DNA of 64,000 nt from Onthophagus taurus (Eukaryota; Arthropoda; Insecta; Coleoptera; Scarabaeidae): positions 29,241,501-29,305,500 of the forward strand of contig NC_091967.1 in the NCBI RefSeq assembly GCF_036711975.1, in the 5' to 3' direction. This document shows positions 8,191 to 17,156 of this stretch, piece by piece. The translations under genes were made by a program, and so were the position numbers. Position 1 is the stretch's first letter; each line of letters opens with the position of its first letter. The notes beneath the pieces were generated by a model that did no database searches, was not told the DNA's origin, and saw only the letters and a program-made list of their open reading frames with translations.

Positions 8191-8673
8191 TTAAAATTCC
8201 ATTGCTGACACGGAATCTTCGTTTAATTGTAATGGTAACTTAAACGCTCTGTGCACGGTTTTTCCATTTTCTAACAGTACGGCCGCTATACCGGTCCACG
8301 CTACGACGATGACACTCTTTCTATATCGACGCAGCACGTACTTCAACAGAATATTATACAGGAACGTTTTTCCCGTGCCTCCAGGCCCGTCTACATAAAA
8401 TAAATTACGTCCAGTCCGTAATCCTAACATATTAAATTCGATTTCCTGCGTCACTTCGTCGAATACCCGCAATTGATCCCCGTTTAATGTCCTTTTGATA
8501 TCTTCTTGTTGTTCCTCTTCTCCTCCAACTCTTACGTCTTCATCCGCCGTTCTTCTCGCGTTTCGTAACGCTTCCTCGTCCACCGACGGGAATCCTATCA
8601 CCTGCAGCGTTTTCCCGTTTCGCAGTAGTTGCTCTTCGATTTCTCTCAACGCTTTATCTTCCGCAAAGCTTTC
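8191..8673 (-). pseudogene. Helitron helicase domain (PIF1-like), N-terminal part
   Basis: PIF1-type helicases in Helitron proteins unwind DNA during rolling-circle transposition. The fragment has the lead-in LNGDQLRVFDEV, then Walker A GPGGTGKT near 8390-8370, then the following strand with AWTGIAAVLL and GKTVHRAFKLP. It ends at 8191 after only the first helicase motifs, so motifs II to VI are missing. Its upstream neighbour in the ancestral protein is the segment ending at 15093; the insertion lies between them. The frame is open, so decay is by truncation. Confidence 0.85.
8665..8673. repeat. 9-bp target-site duplication, left copy
   Basis: AAAGCTTTC directly precedes the element and is repeated at 15093-15101 after it. 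Confidence 0.85.
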
Positions 8674-9050
8674 ACTGGTGTGAAGTTATCCATAAATCCC
8701 AGCAATAAACTTAAAACATTAATAATTCCGTAACCAATACGATTTGGGTAACCAAATTTCACACACAGGTCACTCTTACCCTCAAGAACAGCTAACCACC
8801 CCCATTTGGTAAAAAAAAAATTTTTCAACCCTCACCCCCGAAAAAGGGATGTTTTCGCCCTGATGGGCACCTTCGAATTAAACGAAATTCTACCACATAA
8901 TAGAACACACTTCTAAGTATTTTTATCAATTTTCAAAACACCGTAAGCCCTAACGGTTTTCGAGAAAAAAAATCATTCTTATAAACCGCGGATGGGACTT
9001 TAGGGGTGAATTTGACCCCGTTGGGCACCTCCAAAATTGACGAAATTTTA
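8674..9050 (+). repeat. Left terminal inverted repeat
   Basis: It matches the reverse complement of 14735-15092 with only scattered differences, including the poly(A)-like tract and the TAGAACACACTTCTAAG segment. Confidence 0.9.
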
Positions 9051-9811
9051 GGATGATTTAGAGGATGCCTTTAGCGATTGAAATCAACCATCCAAACACC
9101 GTAATGTATTACGGTTTCCGAGAAAAAAAATGTGTTATTAGACACTATAGGTATACAGCGCGGCGCGGACTTTGGGGGTGAATTTGACCCCGTTGGGCAC
9201 CTGCAAAATTGACGAAATTTTAGGATGATTTAGAGGATGCCTTTAGCGATTGAAATCAACCATCCAAACACCGTAATGTATTACGGTTTCCGAGAAAAAA
9301 AATCTGTTATTAGACACTATCGGTATACAGCGCGGCGCGGACTTTGGGGGTGAATTTGACCCCGTTCGGCACCTCCAAAATTGACGAAATTTTAGGATGA
9401 TTTAGAGGATGCCTTTAGCGATTGAAATCAACCATCCAAACACCGTAATGTATTACGGTTTCGGAGAAAAAAAATGTGTTATTAGACACTATAGGTATAC
9501 AGCGCGGCGCGGACTTTGGGGGTGAATTTGACCCCGTTGGGCACCTCCAAAATTGACGAAATTTTAGGATGATTTAGAGGATGCCTTTAGCGATTGAAAT
9601 CAACCATCCAAACACCGTAATGTATTACGGTTTCGGAGAAAAAAAATGTGTTATTAGACACTATAGGTATACAGCGCGGCGCGGACTTTGGGGGTGAATT
9701 TGACCCCGTTGGGCACCTCCAAAATTGACGAAATTTTAGGATGATTTAGAGGATGCCTTTAGCGATTGAAATCAACCATCCAAACACCGTAATGTATTAC
9801 GGTTTCCGAGA
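8935..9811 (-). repeat. 172-bp minisatellite, left array (about 5 units)
   Basis: Identical landmarks recur at 9061, 9233, 9405 and 9577, giving a period of exactly 172. Each full unit holds the 18-base palindrome ACCGTAATGTATTACGGT. The outermost unit is diverged and blends into the TIR. Confidence 0.95.
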
Positions 9812-9883
9812 TTGTCTGAAATTTTAGGATGATTTGGAGAGTGGATTTTTGATAGAAAAAAAAACTTTTGATAAAGAATGAAA

Positions 9884-9889
9884 TTTATT
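9884..9889 (-). terminator. Poly(A) signal of the SGNH gene
   Basis: AATAAA on the minus strand, starting 3 bases after the TAA stop at 9893-9895. Confidence 0.6.
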
Positions 9890-9892
9890 ATA

Positions 9893-10644
9893 TTAATGGT
9901 CTGTTTTACTTATAATTAAATTGTGTAATGGATTGAGAATATTATTATAATTAGTTGCTACCGCGTTCCAAACCGCTTCCAATCCTTGTTCATTTAAGTG
10001 AATGCCATCCCTGTGTAGAAATTTGTATTAAACACATAAGAAAAGAAAAATTTTCACGTTGTGTTACCCTTCCATCATGTTTCTGTTAACAATTGCTTCA
10101 ATGTCGGTACAATTGATTTGCTTTTCAGCACAAAACCGTCGAATGTAATGATTGATTTCCTATAAAGGCATAGAGAGTATTTATTTATAGCATGACATAG
10201 AAATTATAATATCTTACGTTCACAGACTCGAAGTTTTTGCAGGGAGGAATTGTGCAAATTTGTATTCCTTTAGGATTTAAGGAAAGAAGGAAGCGGAAGA
10301 GGTGAGAATATTGGGACTTTAGTTGGGATGGTGATGTTTTGTGGAGTATATCGTTAGTTCCTATCATTATAACGATATGTCGTTCAACAATATCTCCACA
10401 AAACCAAGGGGAACATGTTTTTGGAATACACTTTGCGCGCCGCAAAAGTTTTAGTATTGTTTGACCGCCTACTGCTAAGTCGAGGAAATATTTTCCGTTG
10501 CTTGTCCGTTTTGATTGTCGTCCTAAAAATATATACCATTAGTAGGAATTAACTTCATATCTGTTAAAACAAATACTTACTTTGTATAGTACGTAGCATT
10601 CGGCAAAAATTACTATCGCCCAAAAACAGTAATTTCGTCGGCAT
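9893..10644 (-). CDS. SGNH/GDSL-type hydrolase-like protein, four exons
   Basis: SGNH hydrolases are serine esterases or lipases acting on acyl or acetyl esters; the substrate here is unknown. I read join(10644-10581, 10522-10218, 10159-10068, 10010-9893) on the minus strand, 579 nt, 192 residues. All three introns are 57-58 nt with GT...AG ends, and the frame stays open across every joint. Block I is G9-D10-S11-N12, block II G40-G41, block III G76-T77-N78-D79, and block V D155-G-I-H158-L-N, so the serine, glycine, asparagine and Asp-His set are all present. Typical SGNH proteins are 180-250 residues, so this is full length. No signal peptide is seen. A TATA box and TCAGTT initiator lie upstream and an AATAAA follows the stop. 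It is the only gene in the satellite-bearing transposon. The exon model is inferred from sequence signals. Confidence 0.8.
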
Positions 10645-10683
10645 CTTCGCTGGTCACTGGTTTTAACAAGAGATAAGCAGAAC

Positions 10684-10719
10684 AACTGATCTCTGCAATA
10701 GCTGAGGAACCTTTATATA
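10684..10719 (-). promoter_or_regulatory. TATA + Inr core promoter of the SGNH gene
   Basis: On the minus strand TATATAAAG runs 10719-10711 and TCAGTT runs 10689-10684. The initiator A at 10687 lies 32 bases after the first T of the TATA box, the spacing usual in insects. The start codon follows 43 bases further on. Confidence 0.65.
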
Positions 10720-11559
10720 TTATTAAGTTCTTACCTGTGTTACAGTAATATCGATGGCTATGATTGGTCAAAGCCGGTGTAAGTGTACTTACAATGCACT
10801 AACTCGTAAGCCACGTACCTGCTTAAGTGACCTTTTTACTGAAAAGAAGTTAAAAAGGAATTCCCTGTACATTTATTAACATCAAAAATAAGTTTTTGAA
10901 TATCACTATTTCTTTATTAACTTCGCGCTTCTAAATGAAGACGTCGTTACCTCGCCAAATATTAATATATATATATTATATATTTAATTAAATATAACTA
11001 TATTTGTAATTTATAATTTATATTATATATAAATATAATAACTTATTTATACACAATATATTATATACACAAAAATATTAACGAAAATATCGAAGCAGAT
11101 TGATTCTAAAAAGAACCGATAAAATATCCATAAAGCGCGAACTACAGCAAAATATATCAACTAGTGATCTCCGTCCCCAATAGAATAGTTTAAGCACATT
11201 TATAAGTTTACTCCTCACCCTTCTGGCAAAATCTAAAAAAAAACAAAGGCGCTCTAAAACAACGCCGAATAAGTCGGCAACTATTTTCCCGGAATGCACT
11301 TATAATGCAAAAAATATGGACATATTTTTTCCTTAATACCTGCGCCTTTTGTAACTGCACGTGGCGGAGTTCTTACCCTTTGTCAGTAACGACTAAAAGC
11401 TCATAAAACTACAAAATGCCTTTCTTAACAAAATTTATTTTTTCCATGAAATATTAAGAGTTTCGCAGTTTTCATAATCTATTAAAATCGCTAAAGGCAC
11501 CTGCTATCTGGTCTACATACGTGTACAATTTAATAACAAATTTTTTTCTCTGAAGCCGT
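10720..11559. other. Transposon interior without recognisable gene
   Basis: AT-rich (especially 10960-11060). The minus ORF 11078-11299 has 73 codons and resembles nothing I know. No transposase motif is seen. Confidence 0.5.
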
Positions 11560-14500
11560 TAAGGGTTACGGTGTCTTGACGGTCGATTTAAATCGCTAAA
11601 GGCATCCTCTAAATCATCCTAAAATTTCATCAATTTTGGAGGTGCCCAACGGGGTCAAATTCACCCCCAAAGTCCGCGCCGCGCTGTATACCTATAGTGT
11701 CTAATAACAGATTTTTTTTCTCGGAAACCGTAATACATTACGGTGTTTGGATGGTTGATTTCAATCGCTAAAGGCATCCTCTAAATCATCCTAAAATTTC
11801 ATCAATTTTGGAGGTGCCCAACGGGGTCAAATTCACCCCCAAAGTCCGCGCCGCGCTGTATACCTATAGTGTCTAATAACAATTTTTTTTTCTCGGAAAC
11901 CGTTATACCTTACGGTGTTTGGATGGTCGATTTAAATCGCTAAAGGCATCCTCTAAATCATCCTAAAATTTCGTCAATTTTGGAGGTGCCCAACGGGGTC
12001 AAATTCACCCCCAAAGTCCGCGCCGCGCTGTATACCTATAGTGTCTAATAACAGATTTTTTTTCTCGGAAACCGTAATACATTACGGTGTTTGGATGGTT
12101 GATTTCAATCGCTAAAGGCATCCTCTAAATCATCCTAAAATTTCGTCAATTTTGGAGGTGCCCAACGGGGTCAAATTCACCCCCAAAGTCCGCGCCGCGC
12201 TGTATACCTATAGTGTCTAATAACAGATTTTTTTTCTCGGAAACCGTAATACATTACGGTGTTTGGATGGTTGATTTCAATCGCTAAAGGCATCCTCTAA
12301 ATCATCCTAAAATTTCGTCAATTTTGGAGGTGCCCAACGGGGTCAAATTCACCCCCAAAGTCCGCGCCGCGCTGTATACCTATAGTGTCTAATAACACAT
12401 TTTTTTTCTCGGAAACCGTAATACATTACGGTGTTTGGATGGTTGATTTCAATCGCTAAAGGCATCCTCTAAATCATCCTAAAATTTCGTCAATTTTGGA
12501 GGTGCCCAACGGGGTCAAATTCACCCCCAAAGTCCGCGCCGCGCTGTATACCTATAGTGTCTAATAACAGATTTTTTTTCTCGGAAACCGTAATACATTA
12601 CGGTGTTTGGATGGTTGATTTCAATCGCTAAAGGCATCCTCTAAATCATCCTAAAATTTCGTCAATTTTGGAGGTGCCCAACGGGGTCAAATTCACCCCC
12701 AAAGTCCGCGCCGCGCTGTATACCTATAGTGTCTAATAACAGATTTTTTTTCTCGGAAACCGTAATACATTACGGTGTTTGGATGGTTGATTTCAATCGC
12801 TAAAGGCATCCTCTAAATCATCCTAAAATTTCGTCAATTTTGGAGGTGCCCAACGGGGTCAAATTCACCCCCAAAGTCCGCGCCGCGCTGTATACCTATA
12901 GTGTCTAATAACAGATTTTTTTTCTCGGAAACCGTAATACATTACGGTGTTTGGATGGTTGATTTCAATCGCTAAAGGCATCCTCTAAATCATCCTAAAA
13001 TTTCGTCAATTTTGGAGGTGCCCAACGGGGTCAAATTCACCCCCAAAGTCCGCGCCGCGCTGTATACCTATAGTGTCTAATAACACATTTTTTTTCTCGG
13101 AAACCGTAATACATTACGGTGTTTGGATGGTTGATTTCAATCGCTAAAGGCATCCTCTAAATCATCCTAAAATTTCGTCAATTTTGGAGGTGCCCAACGG
13201 GGTCAAATTCACCCCCAAAGTCCGCGCCGCGCTGTATACCTATAGTGTCTAATAACAGATTTTTTTTCTCGGAAACCGTAATACATTACGGTGTTTGGAT
13301 GGTTGATTTCAATCGCTAAAGGCATCCTCTAAATCATCCTAAAATTTCATCAATTTTGGAGGTGCCCAACGGGGTCAAATTCACCCCCAAAGTCCGCGCC
13401 GCGCTGTATACCTATAGTGTCTAATAACAATTTTTTTTTCTCGGAAACCGTTATACCTTACGGTGTTTGGATGGTCGATTTAAATCGCTAAAGGCATCCT
13501 CTAAATCATCCTAAAATTTCGTCAATTTTGGAGGTGCCCAACGGGGTCAAATTCACCCCCAAAGTCCGCGCCGCGCTGTATACCTATAGTGTCTAATAAC
13601 AGATTTTTTTTCTCGGAAACCGTAATACATTACGGTGTTTGGATGGTTTATTTCAATCGCTAAAGGCATCCTCTAAATCATCCTAAAATTTCATCAATTT
13701 TGGAGGTGCCCAACGGGGTCAAATTCACCCCCAAAGTCCGCGCCGCGCTGTATACCTGTAGTGTCTAATAACAATTTTTTTTTCTCGGAAACCGTTATAC
13801 CTTACGGTGTTTGGATGGTCGATTTAAATCGCTAAAGGCATCCTCTAAATCATCCTAAAATTTCGTCAATTTTGGAGGTGCCCAACGGGGTCAAATTCAC
13901 CCCCAAAGTCCGCGCCGCGCTGTATACCTATAGTGTCTAATAACAATTTTTTTTTCTCGGAAACCGGTATACCTTACGGTGTTTGGATGGTCGATTTAAA
14001 TCGCTAAAGGCATCCTCTAAATCATCCTAAAATTTCGTCAATTTTGGAGGTGCCCAACGGGGTCAAATTCACCCCCAAAGTCCGCGCCGCGCTGTATACC
14101 TATAGTGTCTAATAACAGATTTTTTTTCTCGGAAACCGTAATACATTACGGTGTTTGGATGGTTGATTTCAATCGCTAAAGGCATCCTCTAAATCATCCT
14201 AAAATTTCGTCAATTTTGGAGGTGCCCAACGGGGTCAAATTCACCCCCAAAGTCCGCGCCGCGCTGTATACCTATAGTGTCTAATAACACATTTTTTTTC
14301 TCGGAAACCGTAATACATTACGGTGTTTGGATGGTTGATTTCAATCGCTAAAGGCATCCTCTAAATCATCCTAAAAGTTCGTCAATTTTGGAGGTGCCCA
14401 ACGGGGTCAAATTCACCCCCAAAGTCCGCGCCGCGCTGTATACCTATAGTGTCTAATAACAGATTTTTTTTCTCGGAAACCGTAATACATTACGGTGTTT

Positions 14501-14760
14501 GGATGGTTGATTTCAATCGCTAAAGGCATCCTCTAAATCATCCTAAAATTTCATCAATTTTGGAGGTGCCCAACGGGGTCAAATTCACCCCCAAAGTCCG
14601 CGCCGCGCTGTATACCTATAGTGTCTAATAACAATTTTTTTTTCTCGGAAACCGTTATACCTTACGGTGTTTGGATGGTCGATTTAAATCGCTAAAGGCA
14701 TCCTCTAAATCATCCTAAAATTTCATCAATTTTGGAGGTGCCCAACGGGGTCAAATTCAC
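11560..14760 (+). repeat. 172-bp minisatellite, right array (about 18 units)
   Basis: Same unit as the left array but in inverted orientation. Two subtypes alternate unevenly: one with CCGTAATACATTACGG and TTGATTTCAATCG, the other with CCGTTATACCTTACGG and TCGATTTAAATCG (units near 11898, 13446, 13790, 13962 and 14651). Units are otherwise almost identical. Both outer units are diverged. Confidence 0.95.
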
Positions 14761-15092
14761 CCCTAAAGTCCCATCCGCGGTTTATAAGAATGATTTTTTT
14801 TCTCGAAAACCGTTAGGGCTTACGGTGTTTTGAAAATTGATAAAAATACTTAGAAGTGTGTTCTATTATGTGGTAGAATTTGGTTTAATTCGAAGGTGCC
14901 CATCAGGGCGAAAACATCCCTTTTTCGGGGGTGGGGGTTGAAACAAATTTTTTTTACCAAATGGGGGTGGTAAGCTGTTCTTGAGGGTAAGAGTGACCTC
15001 TGTGTGAAATTTGGTTACCCAAATCGTATTAGTTACGGAATTATTAATGTTTTAAGTTTATTGCTGGGATTTATGGATAACTTCACACCAGT
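14735..15092 (-). repeat. Right terminal inverted repeat
   Basis: Reverse complement of 8674-9050, ending CTTCACACCAGT at 15092. Confidence 0.9.
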
Positions 15093-15101
15093 AAAGCTTT
15101 C
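15093..15101. repeat. 9-bp target-site duplication, right copy
   Basis: AAAGCTTTC, same as 8665-8673. Confidence 0.85.
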
Positions 15102-17156
15102 GTCGTTACCGGCGTAAAGGAAATCATCCATTAACGCGATTCGGTGATTCAGCCATAGTTGACTTAATTCTAACGCGGCATTATCTACAGCAACCAAACA
15201 AATAAGAGCAAATAGGCGCCTAAGACGTTTCGGAGGAGCGTTATTCGCCGGTTCGATCACGCAGCGATCGTATTCATCGACGCGTTCCAAAAGTCCCATT
15301 CTCCGGCAGGCTTCTTGAAATGTTTCGCATACCGTTTCGTTGACGGTTCTCAACGCTTCAAACGATGTGGAACCCGCTACGTGCGCCAATAGCATTCGAA
15401 GATAAATTTTTTCCATGTCCGTGGGACTCCAACTGCCGTCGCGATCCTCCCACACGTAGTGTTCGGGTATCTCCGGATATTTAAGGTCCCTCGCGTCCGG
15501 ATCGATCTGGTTCAAACGAAAATATGCCATTAACTTTGTGGGTTTTCTAAGGGCCGCTTCAGAATCGGCATTTTCAGCATCGTCGTCTACGATGAACGTT
15601 TGTTCGTTTGGCATGTGTACGGGCAAGTACAACGACGCTGTGGGATTTGTCATTTAATTTATACTCAAACTAACGCCAAACCGCTTCCATCGAACTAACA
15701 TAGCGACATTCTAAATATCGATCGATTTCATTCCATTCCAAGATGTTCCTTTCGTTGCGCGATTCTATTGTAATACAATCCGGTCCTTTATGCACGTACT
15801 TATGCAAATATTTTACAGAGGCCAACGATCCGCATATCTCGAAGTTTATGTGGCACTTATATTTCATCGCAGCGTACCTGCTGTAAGGAGCGACGCTTCT
15901 ATTATCGATTACCACATCTCCCATTTGGATCGATCGACCGTCGTACGGTCTCTTGTATTGCGGCTGTTCTATATGACCCACGTGCAATATCGTTTCTTCG
16001 CAAAAATCCTTCGGATATCTCTTCGTGTATATAACACTCGGCGACTATTCGATGTAATCCGGGCTCTTCCTTTTCGTACGGCAAACGGGAAGATATTAAT
16101 TTATCTATACTTTCGACATCTTCAAATTTATCTTCGAGCCTCATCGCAACTAAAATGTGGGCGTGCGGTAAACCACGTTTTTGAAATTCGATTGTGTACG
16201 ATGTAGTCGATGAATTCGTTTAATTTCGTTTTAAACACCCTCGCAACCAAGTCCGGGCGGTGCTCGTACTTTTGGGCGTATTCAAGATTGTTTTGAATTT
16301 CATCCCATTTCGGATTACACGTTATTGTAATAAAGAGATCGGGCTTCCCGTGTCTGGCTACCATAGCTAACGCTTCCAAGTATTTTCGATTCTTGTATCT
16401 TATAGATCCCGTATGCGATGTGGGTAACACCCATATTTTGCCAATTGTGGTATCTGTACCTCTAAATTGGTCTTCCAAACGTCGTCGAACTACATCGGCC
16501 GACAAGAGCCTAAATCTTTCTTGATTTTGCTTCAAATACCATAATTCGCTTGCTTCAGCTCTGACCCACGCGTCAACGATATATTGTTAATTGAAACAGT
16601 TTTCCCGAATTATGTAAAATTGAAAATTCTTCCCGACACAGCAATATATACTTGTCAAACTCCCTTATGGTAACGTTCTTCGCCGTATTCAGTTGATGCC
16701 GCAGCGTTACGTCGCAACCGTCCCGCTATGGCAAAATCTGCTTGCTCGCGGCTCCTCTGAGAGATCACACACGATACGTACGATCATCACGTACGGTCTC
16801 CGTGATTCCGCTTTTGTTTGCTGGCCCGGCTGAGAAATTTTGCATTCCTCTATCTCGCCCTCTCCTAAACGGGGTATTACCACGGCCGACGACGGTCCCG
16901 GCACAGGTTCCATCGTTGTTACAGTAGCTTCTTCCGCCCGTGCACGGCCCTCAGGATTTACCGGTACGTTCACCTGTAACCGCTCCAAAACGACAACGGG
17001 TCGCCGTAACGCCGTTTCGCTTTTTGGCGATAAAATTTCTCTATTCGCCGTATTAATATATCTCTGCGACCTCCTCGTCGCCTGCAAACTATATTTTCCA
17101 CTACTCGACAATTTAGCTTTCGACCGAACCATTTTATCATGATTTTTATTTACCAC
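15093..17156 (-). pseudogene. Helitron protein, N-terminal and Rep (HUH) part, frameshifted
   Basis: The Rep domain nicks and joins DNA in rolling-circle transposition. Minus-strand pieces run 17156-16707 (basic leader, not recognised), 16535-16128 (LEALAMVARHGKPDLFITIT, the Helitron_like_N region), 16144-15902, 15987-15670 (INFEICGSLASVKYLHKYVHKG) and 15653-15093 (region before the helicase). Near 16180-16150 the HUH motif GLPHAHILVAM is readable, but in a different frame from the sequence before it, so at least one frameshift sits next to the active site. Further frame changes occur near 15990 and 15660. Order and orientation fit the helicase piece at 8673-8191. Confidence 0.85.

Follow-up and report, generated by a model that had tools for sequence, protein, structure and literature searches.

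A gene with the blocks of an SGNH hydrolase and three short introns lies in the stretch of Onthophagus taurus DNA analysed here (64,000 nucleotides, hereafter the window), among terminal repeats and satellite-like arrays. Does it belong to the beetle or to a transposon, and does selection maintain it? The first-pass annotation, made from the sequence alone, had read it as a complete gene carried by a satellite-bearing transposon and kept there by selection. The gene occupies positions 9893–10644 of the minus strand, inside a transposon spanning 8674–15092, and is composed of four exons and three GT-AG introns. Its joined exons (64, 305, 92 and 118 nt) give 579 nt, which encode 192 aa followed by TAA. 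The features of the gene, all on the minus strand, are listed below in the direction of reading.

10712..10717, minus strand: TATAAA, its first T 30 bases 5′ of the A in the TCAGTT initiator; kept in 21 of the 21 copies compared
10684..10689, minus strand: TCAGTT, initiator-like site; TCGGTT in one of 21 copies (L027)
10581..10644, minus strand: exon 1 (block I, GDS); splice reconstruction
10523..10580, minus strand: intron 1, 58 nt, GT-AG; splice reconstruction and copy comparison
10218..10522, minus strand: exon 2 (block II GG, block III GTND); splice reconstruction
10160..10217, minus strand: intron 2, 58 nt, GT-AG; joint matches LOC111429034
10068..10159, minus strand: exon 3, 92 nt; missing wherever old C copies cover the site (see below)
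10011..10067, minus strand: intron 3, 57 nt, GT-AG; joint matches LOC111429034
9893..10010, minus strand: exon 4 (block V, DGIH) and stop codon TAA; splice reconstruction
9884..9889, minus strand: AATAAA 3′ of the stop codon; sequence inspection

The proposed structure (four exons, three GT-AG introns of 57–58 nt, a frame of 192 residues) was upheld by splicing in silico and by the comparison of 20 further copies (L009–L028; 98–100% DNA identity over the gene). In every one of these 20 the GT-AG intron ends are identical, and the structure is therefore not a product of chance. The promoter motifs with their spacing and the AATAAA after the stop codon also proved to be present as described. LOC111429034 (P0001), a protein annotated in O. 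taurus, has joints 2 and 3 in common with the window gene; its model begins within intron 1 and therefore lacks block I, and the joint between exons 1 and 2 is predicted from the window sequence and its copies.

Pfam analysis of the 192-aa product revealed matches to Lipase_GDSL_2 (PF13472; E 2.9e-12, 47.9 bits, cut-off 32.9) and Lipase_GDSL (PF00657; E 1.6e-8), together with a match to OSK slightly below threshold (25.2 bits, cut-off 27). When 12 proteins were aligned, GDS, the Gly of block II, the Asn of block III and D-x-x-H all fell in invariant columns, in agreement with the SGNH blocks recognized initially. Judged by profile and catalytic residues, the protein of lineage A (defined below) is a member of the SGNH (GDSL) hydrolase superfamily, for which esterase activity is predicted.

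The DNA surrounding the gene has the following features.

8194..8685, minus strand: flank, PIF1-like helicase part of the recipient Helitron (Pfam PF05970, E 1.3e-19)
8665..8673, plus strand: left target site duplication, AAAGCTTTC; direct repeat
8674..15092, no strand: whole foldback-type transposon, 6419 bp; recognized by its terminal inverted repeat (TIR) ends, the direct target duplication and seven uninterrupted targets elsewhere
8674..8994, plus strand: left TIR, begins ACTGGTGTGAAGTTATCC; repeat comparison
8995..9811, plus strand: 172-bp tandem array, 4.8 units; Tandem Repeats Finder
10718..11530, no strand: upstream section of the core, partly AT-rich, in which no coding content was recognized without a dedicated ORF or family search
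11531..14771, minus strand: inverted 172-bp tandem array, 18.8 units; Tandem Repeats Finder
14771..15092, minus strand: right TIR; repeat comparison
15093..15101, plus strand: right target site duplication, AAAGCTTTC; direct repeat
16131..16586, minus strand: flank, ORF with the Helitron N-terminal (replication) domain (Pfam PF14214 Helitron_like_N, E 7.3e-39)

The TIRs and both 172-bp arrays (8995–9811 and 11531–14771) noted in the first reading are real. At each end of the element stands a TIR of about 321 bp; next, toward the center, come 172-bp units, oppositely oriented on the two sides, and these enclose a core of 1.73 kb. In the window it interrupts a Helitron (PF14214 and PF05970), and the open frame of the PIF1-like helicase extends 12 bases into the element. 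When the two flanks were joined, they matched seven uninterrupted sites in the genome, five at 95–96% and two at 85–86%.

Twenty-one copies of the element were read (that of the window and L009–L028), and both ends were seen in 16 of them. Among the five one-ended copies, three have their second end past the fetched stretch (in the TIR listing), and two (L010 and L017) are without one side. The target duplications of the 16 two-ended copies are exactly 9 bp long in 13 cases, 8 bp in two and 11 bp in one, the last falling in a TA run. The anatomy is that of a foldback element: the long inverted repeats consist largely of tandem repeats (inverted 172-bp arrays lying inward of the TIRs), and the duplications of 15 of the 16 copies (8 or 9 bp) lie in the range of 8–10 bp. 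The cores of 18 young lineage A copies differ by only 0.28% on average. Element length ranges from 2756 to 11751 bp (41 pairs); the variation resides in the length of the arrays in the copies that were read, the two longest not having been read whole.

These observations bear directly on the idea that the copies belong to a multigene family of the host, simply situated close to satellite arrays, and are not transposon cargo. One copy is indeed annotated as an ordinary gene (LOC111429034), but the copies share TIRs, are bordered by short direct duplications that differ from site to site, and the window insertion has empty counterparts in the genome; a host family is contradicted by these features and is extremely improbable.

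The distribution of the element and of the gene was examined throughout the genome. A search allowing up to three mismatches detected 232 TIR ends, compared with none for a reversed control pattern. Among the matches listed (TIR pair counts cover 100 of the 232 ends, all exact; counts of SGNH places rest on 150 of 224 rows), an SGNH match is enclosed in 40 of 41 TIR pairs. A relaxed TIR pattern, used to look for a sister family, returned the same family, a few lone ends and one extra pair without a listed SGNH match (100 of 183 places listed), which brings the proportion to 40 of 42 among the matches listed. The two SGNH-less pairs among those listed are (i) L069 (3148 bp), a palindrome consisting of TIRs and arrays alone (96.7% over 3158 columns), which has no core, and (ii) C6:1792081–1795584, with no listed SGNH match. 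As defined for Pack-TIR or Pack-MULE elements, a non-transposon gene is thus situated between the TIRs.

Three old, diverged copies of the gene (L073, L074 and L075) have no exact TIR listed nearby, or lie outside the listing. All three adjoin diverged TIRs and 172-bp-like units, both ends being found in L074 and one end in each of L073 and L075. Since 40 of 42 listed pairs enclose the gene and the diverged copies also lie beside TIRs, the association of gene and element is integral and old; the SGNH gene has been carried by the element since an older burst. The description of the gene as transposon cargo was therefore borne out. We regard the family as roughly a hundred mostly young palindromic elements in O. 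taurus.

Four SGNH copies (L030, L034, L066 and the one at C7:30835056) are spaced regularly, at intervals of about 12–13 kb, within C7:30.797–30.835 Mb, as if an element-bearing segment had been duplicated in tandem; the three that were read are of the C type.

No transposase was found in the 16 complete copies, in which all sequence was assigned to TIR, array or core (at 60-bp resolution) except for an 817-bp stretch of one complete copy (L018:5793–6609) for which no counterpart exists in the window element. The genome contains 16 MULE-domain matches. For ten of these, the listing of exact TIR ends covers the surrounding stretch, and as judged by eye none lies within 15 kb of a listed end. 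Two MULE loci, at C6:28.827 Mb (L070) and C5:9.391 Mb (L071), were considered as the autonomous partner and rejected, as neither has a match to the TIRs of the element. The element is taken as non-autonomous because no transposase was detected in the 16 complete copies and neither of the two inspected MULE loci carries its ends; a partner with diverged ends may exist. It shares the Rehavkus-type features of a 9-bp duplication, a long TIR and a minisatellite adjoining the TIR; judging from this anatomy, it is probably Mutator/Rehavkus-like.

The inspected loci have some content of their own. The first (L070; C6:28823500–28830500) contains a 464-aa MULE transposase frame near another frame, which we take to resemble pogo/Tigger. 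In the second (L071; C5:9388500–9394500) there is a 660-aa open frame with a MULE-type domain match, perhaps a domesticated transposase.

The gene was aligned in 61 copies (window and L009–L068), which revealed three lineages. Lineage A keeps the full active-site set and has an intact frame in 16 of the 18 copies read, which are very young, and in two of five older ones. In lineage B, RTK replaces GTN and Tyr replaces the catalytic His in all 19 copies sampled. An 8-nt insertion and a 4-nt deletion flank the end of exon 1, and no in-frame joint between exons 1 and 2 was found with the homologous acceptor, block I being lost in frame. The B protein P0001 scores 22.3 bits with PF13472, below the cut-off; LOC111429034 therefore looks like a copy from this catalytically dead lineage. 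Among the matches listed, B accounts for 42 of 89 places and outnumbers A there (counted by eye from the read-through profile: 79–81% identity, match from residue 2–3 to residue 124–128). Lineage C (seven partial copies) has exon 3 deleted, from intron 2 into intron 3, wherever the site is spanned.

Selection was measured with Nei-Gojobori counts in seven groups comprising 58 copies (L031, L036 and L042 were excluded). Between A and C, 15 synonymous and 22 nonsynonymous changes were counted (dN/dS 0.376, binomial p 0.0075), i.e. fewer amino acid changes than expected under neutrality, in a test that comprises 37 changes, a simple site count and a C consensus of seven partial copies without exons 1 and 3. 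The ratio is also low for old A versus C (0.331, p 0.0026) and for B versus C (0.473, p 0.028), and because of the latter the constraint may sit partly on the shared or the C side. The A versus B comparison is indistinguishable from neutral (0.644, p 0.29), and old A versus B gives about 0.9–1.0 (0.99 by the Nei-Gojobori count). Private mutations number 11 nonsynonymous and one synonymous in A, and 27 and three in B. This total of 38:4 differs from the 22:15 of the A–C path (Fisher p 0.0016), but the private mutations, used here as a control, themselves lean to nonsynonymous changes (p 0.061); their ratio does not differ significantly from that of old A–B (p 0.35). Fixed differences between young and old A copies amount to three in 576 exon positions versus 18 in 1148 elsewhere (p 0.065); as percentages, exons have 0.5%, introns 1.7% and the remaining core DNA 1.5%, and eight of 15 non-coding differences fall in one cluster.

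The simplest reading of these small numbers is that a source lineage was constrained, that landed copies decay neutrally and that function was lost in B. The release of constraint in B rests more on the lost residues than on the mutation counts. Since B, without its catalytic residues, still multiplied, the enzyme is not needed in cis. The cargo looks selected in one element lineage and dead in another that is equally spread, so that the initial proposal of a gene kept by selection is supported for the A–C path and fails for the family as a whole. The defence or host-interaction role suggested in the same annotation is neither favored nor disfavored by these data.

Could the gene be a pure passenger, caught once by a foldback (as in Pack-TIR elements) and hitch-hiking ever since, the constraint on the A–C path being due to chance or counting bias? 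The multiplication of B with a dead enzyme, the neutral appearance of the private mutations and the existence of L069, with TIRs and arrays only, would all be expected of such a passenger, and the nonsynonymous to synonymous ratios of A–B and A–C do not differ significantly (Fisher p 0.55). On the other hand, the old C copies read with their flanks also sit in the element (3/3), so the constrained path from C to young A falls within the history of the element, and the frame remains intact in most A copies, young as they are. We consider a pure passenger a serious possibility, albeit an unlikely one.

The reading that we favor, with some reserve, is that of a non-autonomous foldback-type DNA transposon, mobilized in trans, whose sole recognized gene, a spliced SGNH esterase, is an intermittently selected accessory. 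A transposase made elsewhere would bind the TIRs and move the element in trans, and the repeated 172-bp units may serve as additional binding sites for it. The SGNH gene would be transcribed from its own TATA/initiator promoter. Its product would be an accessory that works in trans or just intermittently, e.g. on membranes or lipids in germ cells, and may slightly favor the persistence of the element or its carrier; the gene would decay in any lineage able to do without the enzyme.

A stronger version of this intermittent-accessory reading, in which the enzyme is a working accessory of the foldback, selected in trans between at least two bursts, with lineage B as a cheater relying on A, is rather doubtful. 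We know of no earlier working SGNH accessory protein of a TIR element. If the stronger version were true, several unrelated kinds of mobile element would each have acquired such an esterase, which would point to a common requirement, involving lipids or membranes, for spreading through the germ line.

Several known systems resemble the O. taurus element in part. Ssk-FB4 of Drosophila melanogaster is a Pack-TIR foldback with long TIRs, 9–10-bp duplications and a spliced gene, described without a transposase of its own; its cargo was captured recently from a known host gene, and it has reached four copies by transposition through an unknown transposase (PMC8277862). Likewise, the O. taurus foldback has long TIRs and a spliced gene, with no transposase recognized. 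Unlike Ssk-FB4 as described there, (i) it carries a gene for which no host parent was found (in a weak search), (ii) 40 of the 42 TIR pairs listed contain the gene, which has 89 listed places, and (iii) the gene encodes an SGNH enzyme and has come through two bursts, one old and one young.

Tetris of Drosophila virilis is a non-autonomous foldback with tandem repeats of about 220 bp in its TIRs and duplications of 8–10 bp, reported to have an unknown autonomous partner and no conserved ORF (PMC4079207). It is similar in anatomy to the O. taurus foldback, and, on that description, only the latter has a gene cargo. The Mutator-like Rehavkus elements of arthropods have a 9-bp duplication, TIRs of 26–400 bp and a minisatellite adjoining the TIR (PMC6446971). 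They share the duplication, the TIR size and the TIR-side minisatellite with the O. taurus element, but are described with a PHD-finger transposase (PMC6446971), and none was recognized in the latter.

With regard to the cargo, the multi-intron SGNH genes named texim are associated with, and probably mobilized by, fish Helitrons, and texim-like genes occur also without Helitrons in other deuterostomes (PMC4021074). As with texim, a multi-intron SGNH hydrolase gene accompanies a DNA transposon in O. taurus; the carrier of texim, a Helitron, is a rolling-circle element, unlike the TIR element studied here. The SGNH esterases of ORF1 in CR1/L2/RTEX LINEs have measured hydrolytic activity and bind phospholipids (PMC3905857), and SGNH esterases are also carried by bdelloid Vesta/Athena and LTR elements (PMC5408684). 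A lipid or membrane role has been proposed for the enzymes of both LINEs and bdelloid elements (PMC3905857, PMC5408684). Their carriers are retroelements, unlike the O. taurus DNA element, and protein and PDB sequence searches revealed no close relation of the O. taurus gene to these esterases.

The first-pass annotation knew of no transposon of this kind described with a gene like this one. Indeed, no foldback or TIR element with an SGNH gene was found among the literature matches listed, Repbase and most subscription journals lying outside the search; the claim of novelty is narrowed by the SGNH cargo of Helitrons, LINEs and bdelloid elements and by the foldback precedent of Ssk-FB4. The O. 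taurus family is a recently mobile gene-carrying foldback whose cargo is unusual, not unprecedented. SGNH esterases have turned up repeatedly in mobile elements that are unrelated to one another, namely LINEs, bdelloid retroelements and fish Helitrons, where their role is unproven. In O. taurus the carrier is a TIR element, recently active and in high copy number, and one insect genome contains an intact as well as a catalytically dead lineage; because the two occur side by side, a benefit of the enzyme to element or host becomes directly testable.

The origin of the gene was traced by database and profile searches. With a method that needs shared 5-residue words, LOC111429034 of O. taurus was the only relative up to E 10 among 5.8 billion proteins. 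A viral carrier was considered and rejected, there being no relative in viral_contigs. When the PF13472 profile was run over the genome, all 21 places detected (21/21) were family copies. Absent from these places is the host oskar-like gene, although PF13472 is among its domains; the scan is therefore weak for a host parent or for intron-split genes. A joint profile also reached insect oskars and standalone OSK-like proteins from metagenomes.

Capture of the host's oskar (OSK) gene by the transposon would account for the 25.2-bit OSK match of its protein, for the similarity to the host oskar-like gene at C11:1.400 Mb (29% identity, E 1e-11 in a single comparison) and for a phase-1 intron that both genes have between blocks I and II, eight alignment columns apart as judged by eye. 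Their remaining introns do not coincide, however, and PF13472 scores far above OSK on the transposon protein (47.9 bits). In the tree, this protein sits on a long branch and groups with general SGNH proteins rather than with the oskars (96/88). The AU test rejected neither a joint clade with beetle oskar (p 0.096) nor one with all ten oskar rows (p 0.20). Sequence comparison thus appears to disfavor an oskar origin, which we consider very unlikely, with the AU test not rejecting it.

The host oskar-like gene itself (L072, C11:1398800–1401400; P0002, 311 aa) has OSK and Lipase_GDSL_2 as its listed Pfam domains and no LOTUS; its assembled part scores 74 bits with OSK. The standalone OSK-type SGNH proteins of about 180 aa (P0012, P0014–P0021, P0023 and P0026), encoded on metagenome contigs, form a group with support of 100/100 and are joined to the insect oskars (91/83). 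They have no relative in viral_contigs, their GDS, GTND and D-x-x-H are mostly intact, and they could bear on the origin of the OSK domain of oskar.
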